64,000 nucleotides of DNA, from positions 6,198,236 through 6,262,235 of the forward strand of contig JAJEKV010000071.1 in NCBI GenBank assembly GCA_021234155.1, given 5' to 3'. A program made the position numbers and the translations under genes. Positions 3,661 to 46,922 of this stretch are shown in pieces; within the stretch, counting starts at the first letter, position 1, and each line of letters starts with the position of its first letter. The stretch is from Isoetes taiwanensis (lineage: Eukaryota; Streptophyta; Lycopodiopsida; Isoetales; Isoetaceae). Under the pieces are notes generated by a model. It searched no databases. It was given only the letters and a program-made list of their open reading frames with translations, and was not told the DNA's origin.

Positions 3661-4774
3661 TGCACCACAGGGTCATTATAAATTTTATTTACCAAGTATT
3701 GTCTCCACTTCTCGGTACAGTGATATTCCTGTGGGGCTGGCTTTCTAGAACCAGCCGCGAGAAGGTCACGGGATGGCGTTCAGGAGGTAAAACATTTCCC
3801 TTTGATGCTGCAATGTACGGCTTTCTTAGCTTTAAGGGAAGATCGCGATCTTTGTCTAGCGCATGTGGGCGTAAAGGCGCGGTGCGTGACTTGGAACCCG
3901 GCGTTTGTGTTCCTTGCACTCTTGCATCAAACCATTGATTCACGTGGGAAGGTTGTGTTCACGGAGGTCGTCGCAGGCGGCTTATCCCAAAAGCACCTCG
4001 CCCCCTTGGTCCTAAGCATGGTCGATCCCAAGCCCGTCTGTCATTTGCTCTAGTGTAGGATATTGCAAAATTTTGCGCGGTCATCTATAAGCATGCAGGC
4101 ATAAGCCCACTGCATGTTCATAATCAAATGGTGAGGCATGTGAGGGTTGTTGCAGGGTTTTCGCTATTTTGCCAAGCCAACTTCAAGTAAAAGTGGTAAG
4201 TGGTGGTCGATCGATCTTTTCATCCCTATTAGCTGTTCCCACGAAAGTGCTTGGCGGCGGGCATATCCCTACTCGGGCACCAGCACATAGTCCACCACAC
4301 TAGATCCGCCCCCTGGTTTTCTGCCTACAAGTGCTCTTGCGGTGGAAGGCCGCGTGCTAGTCCATTCGAATTACGGTCAAAATCTTTATGAGCAAAAGCA
4401 GCTATGCGACCGACCATGGCGTGACTGATTGTCATCGATGTCGTGGCCAAGCTCCTTCGGGATGCATGCTGCAATATATCATAAGTCAAGGGATCAAATC
4501 TCATGGGTTGTTTCTACGGTCTCGCGGCGCATTGAAGTCTCTCAAAGGAGTATGACCTTGGCCTTATCTTTGCTATGTCATCGCTATAGATGACATAGGG
4601 TCCGACCTATCCATCAGAAGTGGGTTGGCGAAGTTACTTTACTACGCGTAGGAAAGTAGCGGTTTTGCCACAAAGAGAGTCACCTTTCTGCCGATTTTCT
4701 GCCGCACCCGCAATTTACCGGTTGTGCTTGTGCTGTCTTGAACAGGAGATTGATTGTGCCAAGGTTGTTAGGTA

Positions 4775-4906
4775 TTAGCGGGGCAACCCCCCATGCCCTT
4801 GCTTTCTATTGCAATCATTGAAGATTGAGTAGTGCTGGTATCCTGGCAAGTCGGGTATCCTGTGTCCTGCATGCTCCCATGTTTCCATGAGGAAGATGAG
4901 ATCCAT
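4775..4906 (-). pseudogene. LINE endonuclease segment
   Basis: The minus strand reads DLIFLMETWEHAG, then IPDLPGYQHYSIFN and RKQGHGG. Apurinic endonuclease-like domains of LINEs have a glutamate strand of the type 'xxLxETW', then 'LPGY' and a 'G-GHGG' turn before the next strand, which is the order seen here. The same frame continues upstream to 5,227, but that part looks unlike a LINE endonuclease N-terminus. The catalytic Asp and His motifs further on were not found in a continuous frame. Confidence 0.7.
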
Positions 4907-5230
4907 GTCTGCGGCAACTGAGTTGAGACTTATCTCCCTTCTACCATGGGAAGCAGAGCAATTCAGGGGGGCCATCGCGGAGGCACAATTCCTATTTGTT
5001 GGCGGCGAGGTGGAAGTCGATGGCGACAGCGAGAAGGGGAGTGGCGGAAGTGCGGCACTGATGATGCGAAACAACGAGAAGGTGAGACCCAAGCCCAGGC
5101 AGGCGTCGCGGCTACTTGAGTGAAGCGATGGCTTTGGCCAGATGTTTCTTTGGAGGGTTGAAAAATATTCGTACTTGACATTGATGCGAATTTGCATCTT
5201 GCCCCGAGCCGATCTACGGCTCTCCACGTC

Positions 5231-17369: not shown

Positions 17370-18180
17370 CATGTGCATAGTTTTTTCTTCTGCTTCGTGT
17401 GAAGGTAAATACAATCTCTTCTGGCATTATAGCATGTCGATGTAAATATGCAAAAGTGTAGGTTCAGGGATCTTATTTAGGAGATGGAAACTGGCCATGG
17501 AATTGTCATTAGTGTTTGGTTGATTTGCAGGTCTGTCCATCCAAAAGTGCTACAAACCAGTTATGTTGTTTCAAGAGAAATTGACGTCTACATTTTGCTG
17601 AATAATCCATGTTTGAACTATAAATAAAGCTATCTGAATAATCCATGTTTGAACTATAAATAAAGCTATCGGAGTTTAACTATTGTGCGTTTGCTTTCCA
17701 ATTGAAATAAGTTTCTGCCTGTTGTGCTACATCAATAATGCAAACATAATAATATGCATGTGTTTTTAGGATGCACATCATTAGTGTGGGTTGCTTTGCA
17801 GGTCTGTCCATCCAAAAGCGGTACAAACCAATTGTGTTGTTTCAAAAGAAATTGACGTCTACATTAAATTGACGCCTACATTTGCTGAGTAATTCATGTT
17901 TGAACTGGAAAAAAAAAGCTATTCTGAATCTAAATCCGAAGCTGCAAATTGGGGTAAGCTTTGCTTTGCTTTTTAATTTGTTTTTGAACAGCTAAGCTAG
18001 GGCTTGAATAGGACAATTTTCTCTACTGTTGTGGTACAACATTTAACCTCTAGACGTTTCTCTTTTTCAGGATTGCATCATTTAGTCTGGTTGAATACCT
18101 CATAGAAATTGCACTATGATCTTGAAAAATAGAAGTTTGTGCGTTTGGCACAAGCCAGTCTATGTCTACTGCCACATAAG
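17370..18180 (+). repeat. Large inverted repeat, left arm
   Basis: This arm is the imperfect reverse complement of 21,421-22,258. Landmarks in order: catgtgcatagtttttt, 'gaaggtaaatacaatctctt', 'gatcttatttaggagatgga', 'ccatggaattgtcattagtg', 'ccatccaaaagtgctacaaa', 'aaattgacgtctacat', 'ggacaattttctctactgtt', 'gaaattgcactatgatctt' and 'tggcacaagccagtc'. All reappear inverted and in reverse order on the other side. The arm also carries an internal duplication (17,525-17,670 versus 17,800-17,935) and a 36-bp direct duplication at 17,602-17,674. Confidence 0.85.
17602..17674 (+). repeat. 36-bp perfect tandem duplication inside the left arm
   Basis: 'ctgaataatccatgtttgaa' plus 'ctataaataaagctat' occurs twice back to back. 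The right arm of the inverted repeat has only one equivalent ('ttcaaacatggattattcaa'), so this duplication came after the arms formed, or was lost on the right. Confidence 0.85.
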
Positions 18181-21420: not shown

Positions 21421-22258
21421 GGTTATGTGGCAGTGGACTGGCTTGTGCCAAATGTATAAACTGCTATTTTTCGAAGATCATAGTGCAATTTCTATGAGGT
21501 ATTCAATCAGATCAATTGATGCAATCCTGAAAAGATAAACGTCTGGAGGTTAAATGTTGTACGACAACAGTAGAGAAAATTGTCCTATTCAAGCCCTAGC
21601 TTAGCTGTTCAAAAACAAATTAATAAGCAAAGCAAAGCTTAAATTTGCGCCCGATTTAGATTCGAATAGTTTTTTTCCGGTTCAAACATGGATTATTCAA
21701 AGAAATGTAGGTGTCAATTTAATGTAGACGTCAATTTCTTTTGAAATAACATAACCGGGTTTGTACCACTTTTGATGGACAGACACAAAAGCAACCCACA
21801 CTAATGATGTGCATCTTAAAAACACATGCATATTATTCATGCGCATTATTGATGTAACAACAAAGTGTAAAACTTATTTCAATTGGAAAGTAAACGCACA
21901 ATAGTTAAACCACGATAGCCTTACTTGTAGTTCAAACATGGATTATTCAAAGAAATGTAGACGTCAATTTCTTTTTGAAACAACATAGCGGTTTGTAGCA
22001 CTTTTGGATGGGCGGACACGCAAATCAACCAAACACTAATGACAATTCCATGGCGATTTCCATCTCCTAAATAAGATCCCTAAACCCACACTTTTTGCAT
22101 ACTTACATCGACATAATATAATACCAGAAGAGATTGTATTTACCTTCACACGAAGCGGAAGAAAAACTATGCACATGGCCTACTTACATCGACATAATAT
22201 AATACCGTAAGAGATTGTATTTACCTTCACACGGGCGTAAGAAAAAACTATGCACATG
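21421..22258 (-). repeat. Large inverted repeat, right arm
   Basis: Reverse complement of 17,370-18,180, from 'ggttatgtggcagtggactg' (inner edge) to 'actatgcacatggcc' (outer edge). The outer 80 bp is tandemly duplicated here: 'tacttacatcgacataatat' starts at 22,100 and again at 22,181. At several places where the left arm has CAG or CTG, this arm has a CG-containing variant (for example left 'tgcaggtctgtcc', right equivalent 'tgcgtgtccgccc'). Confidence 0.85.
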
Positions 22259-33879: not shown

Positions 33880-33920
33880 TGGGAAATTTGGTATCTTCAG
33901 TTGTTGCCTAAAATTTCCCC

Positions 33921-34193
33921 GACTTCCTGAGGCGGGATTCTATCCTGTCTATAAAGTGTGCATGTATGGCTAAAGTTTTGCCCAACGGACGTGTGGTGAG
34001 TTGGTATAGGCTTAGTAATGTCAAAATGAATGTGCACTTGGTCAGGGGTTCAACACTGGCCGGTGTATGTTTAGCCTTGGGAGTTGTTACTGGGGTTATC
34101 GATGATGATCCCCGGCGTGGTAGAACTTGTGCCTATACATGTCCTTCACTTTAATGCGCTATAAAGGCAGCAGGATAAGCTCCACAATAATTG
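33921..34193 (+). mobile_element. Solitary tRNA-like (SINE-like) unit
   Basis: A diverged single copy of the 338-bp unit found in tandem at 40.4-46.9 kb: 'gacttcctgaggcggg', 'aagtgtgcatgtatggctaa', then an A-box-like 'tggtgagttggtatagg' (about 33,992) and a B-box-like 'gggttcaacactgg' (about 34,048). It lacks the A-rich 3' end of the array units. It is bracketed by the 37-bp direct repeat, which is longer than typical SINE target duplications. Confidence 0.65.
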
Positions 34194-39885: not shown

Positions 39886-40376
39886 GCTTATGGTTAGCGT
39901 CGTGGGCCATTTGAGAATCGAAGCGAATGGTGAAAGCGAGGAAATCGTCCTTGCATCTTTGTTTTCGTGATATCATATGGACTCAAACAATGGAACTAAT
40001 TTGTGCTTAGGTTTAAAGTGGCGCCCTTTCACAGAAAGTAAAGAACAAAATCTGTGTGGCCAAATTTGGGCTATTCTTGGATCTCCAACCACGAGCCACT
40101 TTAAAAGAAGTTGTATGGGTAAAATTTGGTCAATTCCTTGAAAGTGAGCGACTTACACTTCCAAAATAACTGCGAGTAAGATGTATAATTGCTACATGCC
40201 TCGGTGTCTTCTTGCACAAACTCATGAACTATCCTATGAGTATAAATTGCATATTTGGTTAGCGTTTATGTGGTGCATTGCATCATCGCTAGATGGTGCT
40301 TCGATCGACTCCCGAAATTAAGTCGAGGAGGCGGTAGGGTTAAAGCCAAAAGCGAGTTCTAGGCCGGGTTAGCGAA
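39886..40376. other. No recognised gene; possible promoter side of the LRR piece
   Basis: No frame or repeat of note. It separates the LRR leader from the tRNA-like array. A TATA-like or promoter element could not be assigned. Confidence 0.35.
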
Positions 40377-41361
40377 GTGACTTCCTAAAGGCGGAGATAT
40401 CCACGCCTACAAAGTGTGCATGTATGGCTAAAATTTTCCCCAGCGGATGTGTGGTGAGTTGGTATAAGCCTAGTAATGCCAAAATAAATGTGCACTTGGT
40501 GGGGGTTCAAACCCGGCGGTGTATGTTTATATTTGGAGTTAGTTCTTGGGGTTATCGGCCATGATCCCGGCGTGGTAGAACTTGTGCCTATCGTGTCCTC
40601 CACTTTAGTTTGCCTTGATCGTGATAAAAATATTTCTAGCTAATGCGTACAAGATGATATTCTAGTGACAAGACTAGTTTAAATTTGGACCAAAAATAAA
40701 AAATACAAAATTTCCGTGACTTCCTAAGGCGGGAGATATCCTGCCTACAAAGTGTGCATGTATGGCTAAAGTTTTGCCCAACGGATGTGTGGTGAGTTGG
40801 TATAGCCCTAGTAATGCCAAAATAAATGTGCACTTGGTGGGGGGTTCAAACGGCCCGGTGTATATTTATATTTGGGAGTTGATTCTTGGGGTTATCGGCC
40901 ATAATCCTGACGTGGTAGAACTTGTGCCTATCGTGTCCTCCACTTTGGTTGCCTTGGCCGCGATGGGATATTTCTAGCTAAATGCATACAAGATGATATT
41001 CTAGTGACAAGACTAGTCTATTTGGACCAAAATAAAAATACAAAAATTTAAAGTGACTTCCTAAAGGCGGGGAGATATCACTGCCTACAAAGTGTGCATG
41101 TATGGCTAAAGTTTTGCCCAGCGGATGTGTGGTGAGTTGGTATAGGCCTAGTAATGCCAAAATAAATGTGCACTTGGTGGGGGTTCAAACCAGGCCGGTG
41201 TATGTTTATATTTGGGAGTTGTTCTTTGAGGTTATCGGCCATGATCCGGCGTGGTAGAACTTGTGCCTATCGTGAGTTGTTGCCTTGGCCGTGATGGGAT
41301 ATTTCTAGCTAATGTACAAGATGATATTCTAGTGACAAGACTAGTCTATTTGGACCAAAAA
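40377..41361 (+). mobile_element. tRNA-like tandem array, part A (units 1-3)
   Basis: Three head-to-tail units start at 40,377, 40,716 and 41,053, period about 338 bp. Each begins with 'gtgacttcctaa(a)ggcgg', passes through 'aaagtgtgcatgtatggc', has a Pol III A-box-like 'tggtgagttggtata' and a B-box-like 'ggttcaaac(c)cgg' about 50 bp later, then 'ctagtgacaagactagtcta', and ends with the A-rich 'ccaaaaataaaaatacaaaa'. Head and tail fit a tRNA-derived SINE. Perfect tandem order without target duplications is unusual for SINEs and satellite-like. Unit 3 stops at 'ccaaaaa' (41,361), where foreign sequence begins. Confidence 0.75.
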
Positions 41362-41661
41362 TCTATATTATAAAGTTATTACGTAATTGTTGGACCCGAC
41401 CCTAGATCCAGCGGTGAGATTTCACCATCTAATCGAGGGCTTAGATTACAAGCGTAACTTTTTAAATAAGAACATAAAAACCCTAGCCCTAAGGGAGGCT
41501 CGGATGCCGGGACCCCAATCGAGGGTAGAAGAAGCGAGTTGTGGGTGCGAGTTGTGGTGGAGGGGCGGATAAGGATCGTAGCATCGTATGAGGTCCATCT
41601 CCATTAGGGTCTTCTCTTCGGAAATCTTGTGCCATATGGCACTCGGCTTAAATTTATTTGC

Positions 41662-42321
41662 GGTATAAATTTATCACCGTTGTCGTGCAGAGCGGTATAA
41701 ATTTATACATTTCGTCTCGGCGGTATAAATTTATACGGCTCGAACACTTCGCGGTATAAATTTATCTTTGTGGCGGAGCGGTATAAATTTATCGGCGGTT
41801 AATTTTCTTCCGGCGGTATAAATTTTCATCTGCGCCCGAGCCATATCGCGGTATAAATTCATACAGCATGAGAGCCATATCGGTATAAATTTACACTTAC
41901 ACTCCTACTTGATTAAAACAAAGAGAAACTAAGGCGGTATGGATAGTAGACTTACGTGGCCATGTGGCGGTATGGACTCGTATTTGGAGAGCAAATAAGG
42001 GGGCATATAAACCCCTTATACCGCAGCATATCAACTCATTGCGTGTATATAGAAAATAAATTGGCGGTCTTGGGGCTTAAGTACCTCTGCTAAGTCGTTT
42101 AGGTATAAGCTTCTCCATAAAGTTTTCAATACAAGCTGTGTGTGAGTTTTCGTATAAATTTATCGTTTCTTTTCTATGTTGCCCTCCTCAGGTATAAATT
42201 TATACCATCTCGTATAAATTTATCTGATCTGCCGCTTCAAGTTTTGCCTTCTCTTGTATAAATTTATACCATCCACTGTGTAAACCTTTGCCGTGCTGCT
42301 CTTACGTAGGTATAAATTTAT
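41662..42321 (+). repeat. Cluster of palindromic GGTATAAATTTATACC motifs
   Basis: The core GTATAAATTTAT occurs at 41,662, 41,694, 41,722, 41,753, 41,780, 42,151, 42,191, 42,211, 42,255 and 42,309 (motif starts). One-mismatch relatives are at 41,815, 41,850 and 41,882. The copy at 42,191-42,206 is the full 16-bp palindrome GGTATAAATTTATACC, and 42,255-42,270 nearly so. Spacing is 20-40 bp in two groups. The sequence between copies is unrelated, so this is a true motif cluster and not a decayed satellite. Such clusters are known as subterminal transposase-binding arrays in CACTA and hAT elements. Here the binding protein is unknown. Confidence 0.85.
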
Positions 42322-42427
42322 CACGATTGTGGCCTTAACTTTGGAGGTATGGCTCGAGGAAAAAAAAGCTGCGGGGCCTCCAACTCGTTAAGCGGGCTTC
42401 CTCTGCAATGACATTCATACCTCCTCA

Positions 42428-43384
42428 ATGTTTGGAAGTAGCCTCGAAAATTCGCCTCCGATATTCAAAACCCCGACTCTGTTGAGTTTACTCGGCCACG
42501 ACCACCTCGGCTTCCACCACCAGTTCAATTTACTCCACTACACCCTGCTCCTGAACGTCGTTTGCCCCCACCAATGCGTTTTACTCCACCACAGGCTAGA
42601 GAGGTCAGACTACCTCCTCCACTTCATTTTAGTACGTCGCCCATAGTCCACCGTAGGGTAAATCCCCGGAGGCAAATCCGCCAACTCCATCCATTTAAGC
42701 TAAATGATACTACAACAAGTGGGGCGGTCGGCGACCACGCATGGCCTCTGTGTTCTCACGACCGTCGGGGGCTGGTCAACTACGTCACCAACCTCGATTA
42801 CTTTTTCCCAGAGACAGGGAAAGCACCTCCCCCCAGGACTCTCACCGTCTACTAGTACACCTCTTGTTGATCTCTCAGACGAAGAAACACCTCATGTTGA
42901 TCTCTCAAACGAGGACCTACCAAAGCCACAAGACTCCATGTTTGAATTCAAAGCCCCTGCAAGTAAGAATCTTAAGCGTAACTTACACAAGAAAGCATGT
43001 ACAACCGTTAGGAGAAAGAAACTCATGGACGAGGCTCACTTGAGGGCAACACATACAAAGCACTGTTGTTCTCAACGTTGTTTGCTTAAGATTGGACTAA
43101 AGGAATTGAGGTTGATTCGTGATAGTTACAGTTCAATGACTCTGCTAGACCAAAGGGGCTACTTAGCCTTCAATATTAGGCCAGATTATGGTGAGAAGTT
43201 TACTTACGGTGGTGGGCCACCGTCATCAAGCGGCCTTCAAATTGATTCATGCTTTAGGCGGCGAGGCGACTTGACGCTGAAGAAAAGGCTTGACAAGAAT
43301 CAGGGCATTAATGACTCACGCCATTCGGGAGGTATATCCGAATTCATGCCCTTCAATGTGTTTCTGGATGGAAGGTTTCTTTAA
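42428..43384 (+). pseudogene. DUF7869-like gene 2, N-terminal half
   Basis: A Pro-rich leader (about 42,505-42,640: PPRLPPPVQFTP, PPPMRFTPP, LPPPLHFS) lies in a different frame from the main piece, 42,704-43,384. The latter has an acidic repeat (VDLSDEETPHVDLSNEDLP), a basic stretch and a Cys motif KHCCSQRCLLKIGLKELRLI (43,057-43,116). It continues RDSYSSMTLLDQRGYLAFN and ends DGRFL. The Cys motif lines up with ECCWANC of gene 1, as in the family N-terminus. A shift near 42,840 joins leader and body. Confidence 0.65.
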
Positions 43385-45200
43385 GGAGTCTTCGCGAAAC
43401 TCCCCTAACGACCCCATGTACCACTTGGTGACAACTTCACGAAGCGTGAAGTCTCGATAATTATAAGGACATGTGTGTTGAGGCTGGGAGAGCGCCATAT
43501 ACGCTACTCTTACTTCAACGTGCTCACGGAAAAAGAGTTTTCTCGGCGTGTCCATTCCTAGAAAGCACCGGATGTACGTGTGTGCTACATGCTCTGAATT
43601 AAAAGCTCGGAGACAAAATGCAAAAGGAAACTTCACACTAAAAGTAAGCTTCGGGGCGTGTTCTTGCCTAGTTCTACTTAAAAGTAGGTTCTTTCCTAAA
43701 CATGTTTTCATTTAGGATGCATTGAAAGAGGCCTGAACAAGCAGAGAACAACAATCTTTAGAAAGGAGAAAATTGACAAAACATAGGAAGAAAGCCTTTG
43801 GAGCAACCACTCAACTACATATCGGTTGTTATTGATGGAATGGACGGAAGAAGACCACCCTACCACATTTTGTCAATGTGCCTAAGGATCTTCTTGAAGA
43901 AGATTTCATACACACTGCATGTTGTTGGTGCTATGGTATTTAATGGAAAACTATCTTGCAAGGCATTTTTGAACTATCAAACATTCATGCTGATCCAAAT
44001 CTCACTATCACAATATTGAATAAGCTTCTTTCCAATCTAGAACATATACCCTTTGGTTTTGTATCTTGACTTGACAACACGACAAGAGAAAATAAGAATC
44101 GGCGTTGTTTGCTTCTTGTGCTATGCTAGTTGAAACAAATCTTCAAGAAGGTGAAGATTGGTTTCACCTTGTTGGTCATCATACACGATCAAATTGATCG
44201 AGATGTTGATTAGGTTCTCTAAAGCGTCTTGCTTTCGAAAAAAGCACTCGACCTCCCGGCAATGATTGAGGTTATCCAAGATTCCTACAATCCTCGTCCG
44301 GACATCGAGTTATTAGAAGAAACTTATGATTTCAAGGAATGGATTTTTCGGAGAGATCAAGCTGGGTCCTTTGTGCTATTGAGCCCTTGAGAAACATTAC
44401 ATTTCAGCATCGGATCAAAATTTCACTTGTAGATGGCAAGGCCATCTTACAAGAAAAAAATATGCCACATCCTTGCGATTGGCGACCCGGTGTGAGTATT
44501 CAATTCATTCGCACCATCCCCAATACTAGTTCCATGCTCTCTGCGAGAATAAATGCCTCTAAAAGCACGAAAAGAAATCACAAAGAGTAAAAAAGGAGGA
44601 AGAGCATTTGACTCAAACAAATCATTGGATTTTATTGAGACAAGTATTCGATCGTGCTCTAACCACTTTGGGGGGCGGATGCTTTATGGTGGCCTCGTTT
44701 TTTTTTTCACCGACAGCGTGACATGTTGCAAGCTTCATTACAAGGTCGGAGACCGGTTACATTCAGCCCCGGCCATCTAGGCAAACTCTCCTGTGCAAGT
44801 TGAGAATCAAGAGGAACATGTAGAGATATTGGCTAGCTCGGATGAAAGATAGTCATGTACTGCGGCCCCAGGGCATACGGCACAACAAGTTGCTTTCGAG
44901 TATCGGTTCGATGTCGAGAGATTGAAAGGAATGCTCATAAACATCGGTGATAATGATGAATCTGGAAAGCCATTACGGCTAGCTAAAATCTTGGAGGTAA
45001 TAAGAGAGGATGGAATTCCCACTCAATTAAAAGTGCCTTTGGATGAGCGAATCTTGCCAATGCTTTCAATGGGAGTTATACTTTGGAGATGGTAAAAGCA
45101 GGGAGTGGGAAAGAGAGCTAAGTCCAAAACAAACCTTTGTTGTCATAGATCTAGCTGAAGTAAAGGTTCTTGCATATGACTTTGTTACATTGCTTTGCTA
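43385..45200 (+). pseudogene. DUF7869-like gene 2, catalytic-like half, frameshifted
   Basis: Family motifs appear in order: LNYISVVIDGMDGRR (43,812-43,856; gene 1 has CIIHDKMDQSK), HFVNVPKDLLEEDFIHTA (43,866-43,920), HVVGAMVFNGKLSC, HADPNLTITILNKLLSNLEH (43,985-44,044), LDNTTRENKN (44,071-44,100; family QLDNxxxENKN), VxxIHDQID (about 44,180-44,208; family VGHTHxDxD with a one-base insertion) and EVIQDSYNPRPDIELL, YDFKEWIF (44,268-44,347). A coherent tail, VERLKGMLINIGDN to LDERILPMLSMGVILWRW (44,917-45,093) and VKVLAYDFVTLLC (45,163-45,200), may be the C-terminus. At least four shifts. Function unknown; context suggests the element's mobility protein. Confidence 0.68.
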
Positions 45201-45769
45201 ATAAGTTCACGTATGATCACTCAAACTTTAATAAAGGTCGGCATGTGGATTAGACAAACAACCTAGAAAGGTGGCAAAAAAAAGATGATGATGAAGACTC
45301 ACTTGTAGGCGGTGAGGGAAGAAGATCGTTCAGTACATCCGGTTTAGTGAAGGTGAGGATGAAGGCTCAAGTGATCGAGGGGATTAAATGAGTCGGAAGA
45401 TGAGATGCATCGATCTTGCTGCAAAATGTAAGTTTGTCCGGTGACTTCGAACATGTATAGAAAACGAAAGTGCGGTGATGAGTGTTTGTCAAAATGTCCT
45501 ATATTTTAGACAATTTTGTTCATAATTTTTACAATTTTCCTGGCAAGTGAATATATCACTTCTTTGTCACTCTACTACCCTTGCTATTTTTTTATTGCCT
45601 TTTTTTTTGTTATAGGAGGATGAAAATAGTTTGGGAGGATGAAAACTATTTAAAATTTTTGCATGAAAGTTATGTTTAATCAACCCCTCAAAAATAGTAC
45701 CTAAATTACTTAAATTGTCACACCTGTCACAAAAAAATCTTAAAAATGGACTTTTTTAAGGGAATTTTA

Positions 45770-45792
45770 GGGAATCTTTCAAAGATTCCTTT
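45770..45792. other. Perfect hairpin near the right end of the insert
   Basis: GGAATCTTT-C-AAAGATTCC pairs over nine bases with a one-base centre, followed by TTTT. It lies about 48 bp inside the point where the tRNA-like array resumes. Helitrons carry a hairpin near the 3' end, but usually within 10-15 bp of a CTRR terminus, which is absent here. Confidence 0.6.
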
Positions 45793-45838
45793 TGAAGTGC
45801 GTTTGCAGCAAATAAGTGCGTTTCATTTTAAACTTTGT

Positions 45839-46922
45839 TGACTTCCTAAGGCAGGAGATATCCTGCCTACAAAGTGTGCATGTATGGCTAAATTTTTGCC
45901 CAAGCGGATGTGTGGTGAGTTGGTATAGGCCTAGTAATGCCAAAATAAATGTGTACTTGGTGGGGTTCAAACCCGGCCGGTGTATGTTATATTTGGGAGT
46001 TGGTTACTTTCGGGTTATCTGACCATGATCCCCAGGCGTGGTAGAACTTGTGCCTATCGTGTCCTCCACTTTGGTTGCCTTGACCCGGTAGTAGGATATT
46101 TGGTTGCCTTGGCCGTGATAGGATATTTCTAGCTAGTCTGTAGAAGATGATATTCTAGTGACAAGACTAGTCTAGCTGGACCAAAAATAAAAAATACAAA
46201 ATTTCCGTGACTTCCTAAGGCATGAGATATCCTGCCTACAAAGTGTGCATGTATGGCTAAAATTTTGCCTAACGGATGTGTGGTGAGTTGGTATAGGCCT
46301 AGTAATGCCAAAATAAATGTGCACTTGGGGAGTTCAAACTTCGGCCGGTGTATGTTTATATTTGCGAGTTAGTTCTTGGGGTTATATGGCCATGATCCCA
46401 GACATGGTAGAACTTGTGCCTATCGTGTCCTCCACTTTGGTTGCCTTGACCCGTGGTAGGATATTTCTAGCTAATCTGTACAAGATGATATTCTAGTGAC
46501 AAGACTAGTCTATTTGGACCAAAAATAAAAATACAAAATTTAAATTGATTTCCTAAGGCGGGAGATATCCACCCTACAACAAGTGTGCATGTATGGCTAA
46601 AGTTTTGCCCAGCGGATGTGTGGTGAGTTGGTATAAGCCTAGTAATGCCAAAATAAATGTGCACTTGGTGGGGGTTCAAACGGCCGGTGTATGTTTATAT
46701 TTGGGAGTTGGTTCTTGGGGTTATATGGCCATGATGATCCGGCGTGGTAGAACTTGTGCCTATCACGTGTCCTCCACTTTGGTTGCCTTGGCCGGCGATG
46801 GGATATTTCTAGCTAGTGTGTACAAGATGATATTCTAGTGACAAGACTAGTCTAGCTGGACCAAAAATAAAAAATACAAAAATTTCCGTGACTTCCTAAG
46901 GCAGGACTGCCTACAAAGTGTG
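45839..46922 (+). mobile_element. tRNA-like tandem array, part B (units 4-7)
   Basis: Units start at 45,839, 46,207 and 46,545, and a truncated one at 46,888-46,922. Each has the same A-box-like 'tggtgagttggta' and B-box-like 'ggttcaaac' as part A. Unit 4 is about 30 bp longer because 'ggttgcctt(g)' is duplicated near 46,073-46,105. Unit 4 has a perfect hairpin GGCAGGA-gata-TCCTGCC at its head, while most other units read GGCGGGA there, which breaks the pairing. Confidence 0.75.

Follow-up and report, generated by a model that had tools for sequence, protein, structure and literature searches.

The right half of a DUF7869 transposon, probably of the Sola superfamily, interrupts a tandem array in Isoetes taiwanensis

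The stretch of Isoetes taiwanensis DNA analysed here (64,000 nucleotides of contig JAJEKV010000071.1, positions 6,198,236 to 6,262,235 of the forward strand; hereafter the window) contains a tandem array split by an insert of some 4.5 kb that carries the remains of a DUF7869 gene. The insert corresponds to the right half of a ~8.6-kb DNA transposon, truncated at its 5' end and decayed; the element is most likely a Sola1-like member of the Sola superfamily. This reading is given a probability of roughly 0.8.

Termini of the window copy

The array was delimited using Tandem Repeats Finder (TRF) and BLAST self-comparison. Its left part, approximately three plus-strand units of ~340 bp (40375 to 41360), is interrupted after position 41360 and the array continues at 45840 (resumed part, 45840 to 46922, plus strand) with the insert in between, as an initial annotation of the sequence had described. 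The 1.658-Gb host genome, in which the window contig is C1080, has four matches to the LEAFY SAM domain, a family regarded as specific to land plants and their algal relatives. Searching the insert against this genome yielded 1950 candidates, of which 34 loci were scored. The same last base was reached in 30 of the 34, the window counted among them. Twelve right ends compared base by base were near-identical through ...AAACTTTGTT, and the flanks diverged beyond the shared T with the exception of L004, whose array is that of the window. The final base of the element in the window is 45839, one position beyond the right boundary initially given (45838). Alignment of the right ends placed the right terminal inverted repeat (TIR), AAATAAGTGCGTTTCATTTTAAACTTTGTT, at 45810 to 45839. 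The hairpin reported near this end was recognised by eye as GGAATCTTTCAAAGATTCC at 45771 to 45789; it recurs at this end in e6, e9 and L001 and, with one change, in e12.

The left boundary initially given, 41362, proved not to be an element end. Only the window and contig C1106 begin there among the 34 scored loci, the other 32 starting at or after insert base 299. Insert bases 1-283 match other repeats (of 42 matches, five span bases 2-231 and eight span 231-283) and have no counterpart in five copies extended leftward beyond matches of at most 27 bp. Because this edge recurs only on C1106 and these 283 bases match other repeats, the left half must be missing from the window copy, and with it the methyltransferase gene that complete copies carry there. 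The right half occupies 41660 to 45839 on the plus strand. The reading of the insert as a whole element, implicit in the initial annotation, was rejected, the left edge being composed of other repeats and three copies extending leftward for another ~4.4 kb, as far as a matching left end. The two pieces at the broken edge, one in place of the left half of the element (41363 to 41592) and one of a further repeat (41592 to 41644), have recurrent ends genome-wide.

At the left junction the array is ~20 bp short relative to its own units, as judged by eye, and the GACT at 45840-45843 would be the remaining copy of the target-site duplication (TSD) of this insertion. On contig C1106 the array recurs, interrupted by the same insertion, at ~85% identity to the window. 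The array and insert were duplicated after insertion, the diverged duplicate being that on C1106; the two were counted as one event because the C1106 array copy bears the same insertion.

Complete copies and evidence of mobility

Both ends were recovered in three of the five copies extended leftward, yielding full-length elements of 8623, 8615 and 8614 bp; the left ends of e5 and e14 were not found within the stretch examined. Full copies have inverted ends of ~30 bp (AACAARGTTTAAAATGAAACGCACTTATTT), with AACAAGG on the left and AACAAAG on the right. Allowing one mismatch, the end motif occurs at 1871 places in the host genome (928 + 943) and a reversed control yielded none. From 100 end-motif places listed, 23 end pairs were picked and 20 examined, those on C223, C312 and C434 being left out. 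An exact 4-bp duplication lay directly outside the ends in 20/20 pairs, comprising 19 different sequences, and each pair combined one G-type with one A-type end. Inspection by eye gave the duplications ACTT (e6), TACT (e9), TAAG (e12) and AAAT (L001), 4/4, and likewise AATG, ATAT, ATAT and GGTC at all four loci of a second family in the host. Four pairs, those of L001, C23, C64 and C116, lie only ~2.2 kb apart and by their size are non-autonomous derivatives.

When the flanks of e12 were joined, 40 main matches were found at paralogous places, all 40 extending across the joint and all belonging to the e12 site; the four places inspected each had a single TAAG. Common ends, TSDs and empty sites, named in the initial annotation as signs of mobility, are thus all present in the genome, the empty site being that of another copy rather than of the array in the window. 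From the defined ends, the 4-bp TSDs and the empty site, the family is therefore mobile: mobility is established at the level of the family rather than of the individual copy in the window. The left part of the C960 copy region (L022, 162-3220) has minus-strand frames with a CCHC knuckle, gag-like by eye as in retroelements, and is probably a nested insertion.

The DUF7869 and methyltransferase genes

Full copies encode DUF7869 in the right half, reading rightward (E 2.1e-40 for a piece of e6), and an N6_N4 DNA methyltransferase in the left half on the opposite strand, reading leftward (E 7.3e-15 for a piece of e12). Genome-wide searches gave 9907 first-look candidates for DUF7869 and 1444 for the methyltransferase, 150 of each being scored. 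All 150 scored DUF7869 matches exceeded the cut-off, with open frames of up to 987 amino acids, and none was found in 14 prokaryote control genomes. Between the best 150 matches of each kind, 24 DUF7869-methyltransferase pairs lay less than 20 kb apart, compared with 0.5 expected, and 22 of these were divergent; the remaining 126 matches in either list had no counterpart in the opposite one.

Three aspartate-containing motifs, IDGMD[QG], [LV]Q[LV]DN and GHTHDxIDQ, were searched for in 24 loci and all three were present in 16, with 7/7 for the Azolla-like relatives described below, in whose proteins the motifs are invariant. That DUF7869 is the mobility protein of a DNA element was an early proposal; the TSDs, ends and empty site bear out the DNA transposon, and the DUF7869 protein is most likely the transposase of the element, which would be of DDD type and would act on the TIRs.

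In the window the remains of this gene span 42562 to 45273 on the plus strand as tblastn pieces, with a start codon at 42349 recognised by eye. The Pfam DUF7869 (PF25273) match, at 44223 to 44390 on the plus strand, falls under the curated cut-off (E 3.7e-4; 20.6 bits against 26), and 14 stops interrupt one frame over 43716-45125. The orientation first described for the gene was upheld, and the gene itself is broken.

The solved relatives nearest to the methyltransferase piece, by sequence search of the PDB, are the bacterial adenine methyltransferases MboIIA, RsrI and CcrM; PHROGs and NCBIfam returned weak methyltransferase matches and nothing else. Motif IV of methyltransferases is usually DPPY. 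Of 17 sources searched, 14 had a motif-IV-like D[IL]PYGF, among them every one of the four Azolla-like contigs that reach the gene. Motif I, FSG[ST]G, was present in one of these four contigs and in 11 of the 13 sources from the host. Motif IV reads D[IL]PYG in L065, L067, L068, L069, L074, L076-L078, L086, L087, L089, e6, e9 and e12 (14/17). The predicted enzyme may serve as a DNA-modifying accessory protein of the element.

Relatives in likely Azolla contigs

Seven contigs in a Trichormus metagenome-assembled genome (MAG) encode DUF7869 proteins 38-41% identical to that of L020; each is encoded by one open frame, 873-924 codons long. Four of the seven (L074, L076, L077 and L078) also have the divergent upstream gene; in L076 the methyltransferase pieces come after that gene, and the L076 proteins, when mapped onto e12 and e6, fall in order. 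Cyanobionts of the Trichormus type live in symbiosis with the fern Azolla. Because of this symbiosis and a Ty3-type integrase frame seen by eye in L077, the seven contigs are likely to be DNA of the host fern binned with that of its cyanobiont. A viral or prokaryotic origin of DUF7869 was considered and rejected: viral contigs gave one pattern match and no relative, and the seven relatives from the prokaryote collection are those read as Azolla.

Palindrome arrays

The cluster of palindromic motifs noted initially was borne out. At 41662 to 42324 the window has eight sites within two substitutions of GGTATAAATTTATACC, compared with none when the insert was shuffled 200 times by mononucleotide; in complete copies this array lies between the two divergent genes. 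The three full copies have 22, 22 and 23 such sites, 10-13 of them exact. The 23 sites of e12 comprise 12 in the intergenic region (4325-5043), nine between the mapped methyltransferase pieces and two elsewhere (469 and 3690). Genome-wide, the 20-bp form of this palindrome (family A) was matched 962 times forward and 955 times in reverse, for the most part at the same places, and never in the control. Among the 52 places listed, in 33 loci, 37 (in 23 loci) lay less than 9 kb from an end motif, against ~2% by chance, and the remaining 15 places did not.

Four loci of the second family are without GGTATAAATTTATACC and have instead 10-15 GTATTCCGGAATAC-like sites each at matching positions. In L089, of this family, the sites are mostly TATTCCAGAATA and one lies outside the matching positions. 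The 20-bp form of the second-family palindrome occurs at 1925 places, with none in the control. Between the same two genes the Azolla-like contigs have interrupted palindromes of the form AAGTCGATGC-N3-GCATCGACTT, for example GGAAGTCGATGC-TAG-GCATCGACTTCC. A GTCGAT core was counted by eye, with no shuffled control, in inverted repeats of L078 (10/10), L074 (14/17), L076 (3/4) and L077 (5/6), those of L078 being spaced ~51 bp apart. In L001 an element of only 2.2 kb (16-2218) shares these ends and has a 4-bp TSD and nine palindromes within two edits; because it retains these nine, the array survives when most of the element is lost.

Helical phasing of the palindromes is suggestive only. It peaked at 10-10.5 bp for family A (R 0.55), 10.0 bp for the second family (0.84) and 10.5 bp for the Azolla-like contigs (0.83), figures to be read with the shared ancestry of the copies in mind, with R at or above 0.53 at every period in the latter two families and with R 0.13 for the distinct A spacings alone.

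The position of the palindromes is retained and their sequence differs by family. This is the behaviour expected of a recognition site for a protein encoded by the element, and the arrays are candidate targets of the proteins that the element itself encodes, one of the two perhaps binding the palindromes of its family. The fuller proposal, that each family marks itself, its own N-methyltransferase (perhaps with a ParB-like part) or its transposase reading family-specific, regularly spaced palindromes in a code that shifts while the proteins stay homologous, is tentative and on balance doubtful. Another reading makes the array a cis-regulatory block, such as a two-way TATA-rich promoter, an insulator or a replication aid, read by host proteins rather than by those of the element; this is a real possibility at somewhat less than even odds. 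The array does sit between divergent genes, and TATAAATTTATA could serve as a TATA box in both directions. Set against this, the same place is taken by unrelated and more G+C-rich palindromes in the second family and in the Azolla-like contigs, and in both host families some palindromes also lie between the mapped methyltransferase pieces.

Other repeats in the window

The array had initially been called tRNA-like. ARAGORN found no tRNA genes, and the label was not confirmed; the sole trace is GGTTCAAACC, which we take to be box-B-like from comparison by eye with the consensus. Self-comparison revealed a lone partial copy of the array unit at 33910-34152 (~243 bp, 86%), which may be a dispersed repeat resembling a short interspersed nuclear element (SINE), and an inverted repeat of ~800 bp and 84% identity (17370-18179 and 21423-22177) with arms ~3.2 kb apart, which may represent a further element whose inverted ends are long.

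Classification and alternative explanations

The Sola superfamily is said to have been described by Bao in 2009, and work by Iyer from 2011 is reportedly also cited on algal transposons. Among other superfamilies, TSDs measure 3 bp in CACTA and PIF/Harbinger and 8 bp in hAT, and are TTAA in piggyBac. Those of Mutator are 7-12 bp and those of Tc1/mariner TA (PMC10741241; this and the other articles cited are represented by excerpts). All six were rejected on mismatch with duplications of 4 bp and 19 sequences in 20 pairs. CACTA and hAT elements are alike in having arrays of short motifs, possibly bound by a protein of the element. The Isoetes element differs from them in its 4-bp TSD, its AACAA termini and its arrays, which lie between and within genes, kilobases away from the ends.

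Sola elements encode a DDD transposase, generate 4-bp TSDs, are mostly 2-9 kb long and have TIRs of 11-1124 bp (PMC10741241); they are known in Physcomitrella (PMC9033089). The Isoetes element resembles them in its 4-bp TSD, TIRs of ~30 bp, length of 8614-8623 bp and three conserved aspartate motifs that would fit a DDD transposase. Closest among the elements compared is Sola1-1_Ec32 of Ectocarpus, which carries a ParB and N4/N6 methyltransferase gene on the opposite strand; the same article cites Petroll 2025 for algal transposons (PMC12477816). The two share an accessory gene opposite to the transposase strand that is predicted to encode an N4/N6 DNA methyltransferase. They differ in size (21.5 kb against 8.6 kb), in host (a brown alga against a land plant), in the ParB-like part, which is weakly supported in Isoetes, and in the palindrome arrays, which the excerpted account of Ec32 does not mention. 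Because TSD, size, ends, aspartates and opposite-strand methyltransferase fit Sola, and above all Sola1-1_Ec32, the suggestion of an undescribed transposon class is unsupported.

Several observations weigh against the Sola1-like reading. The placement is by features of the element. Many family A copies are broken, and eight of 24 loci are without at least one aspartate motif, seven of these in family A. Models of the DUF7869 protein (A1) and the ParB-like protein (A2) were of too low quality for fold comparison, with a mean pLDDT (predicted local distance difference test) of 39.1 and 38.6, and supported no RNase-H fold; a PDB sequence search with DUF7869 gave two chance-level matches (E 0.4 and 0.88), and that with the ParB-like part none or chance-level ones. 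The ParB part itself is a DUF6551 match under the cut-off (E ~0.01-0.08). Because N6_N4_Mtase was also matched in 11 of 14 prokaryote control genomes, this family alone is not specific to transposons. Of the 150 scored DUF7869 matches, 126 are without a methyltransferase partner, the partner list comprising 150 of 1444 candidates. The window copy has neither a left end nor a second TSD copy.

An alternative is a separate superfamily defined by DUF7869, sharing a 4-bp TSD and a methyltransferase with Sola1 through convergence or gene capture. In its favour, the likeness to Sola is one of features, and DUF7869 is absent by name from the literature searched. Methyltransferases also occur in other transposons, as in Mariner elements of viral genomes, which share a transposon-encoded methyltransferase with the Isoetes element and differ in transposase and gene content (PMC3627910). 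This explanation is nevertheless unlikely, since TSD, size, TIR, aspartates and opposite-strand methyltransferase all fit Sola, and SOLA elements are reported to be abundant in Azolla (PMC6786969), from which the relatives probably come. Far less probable still is a split produced by rearrangement of two separate arrays without any insertion, which had been raised at the outset as the case that would undo an insertion. The left edge is indeed ragged and composed of other repeats; the right edge, however, is the terminus common to 30 of 34 scored loci, with differing flanks beyond it, and the units of the array run in one direction to either side of the insert. On the preferred reading, a Sola1-like element would have inserted into the tandem array with a 4-bp duplication, and the window copy would then have lost its left half and ~20 bp of the array, other repeat pieces occupying the gap.

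Significance

A title-level search of the literature recognised no methyltransferase transposon of a land plant, no assignment of DUF7869 and no family-specific palindrome arrays. What is new is a two-gene element amplified in a land plant and present in likely Azolla contigs, with family-specific palindrome arrays between its genes. Transposons that carry methyltransferases, so far algal (brown, green and red) in the excerpted literature, have multiplied in a land plant too. DUF7869, a Pfam domain of unknown function, gains a probable role as a Sola-type transposase. If the element's own enzyme targets the arrays, these would constitute a self-marking system, and the palindromes supply exact sequences for seeking N6-adenine or N4-cytosine methylation in plants.

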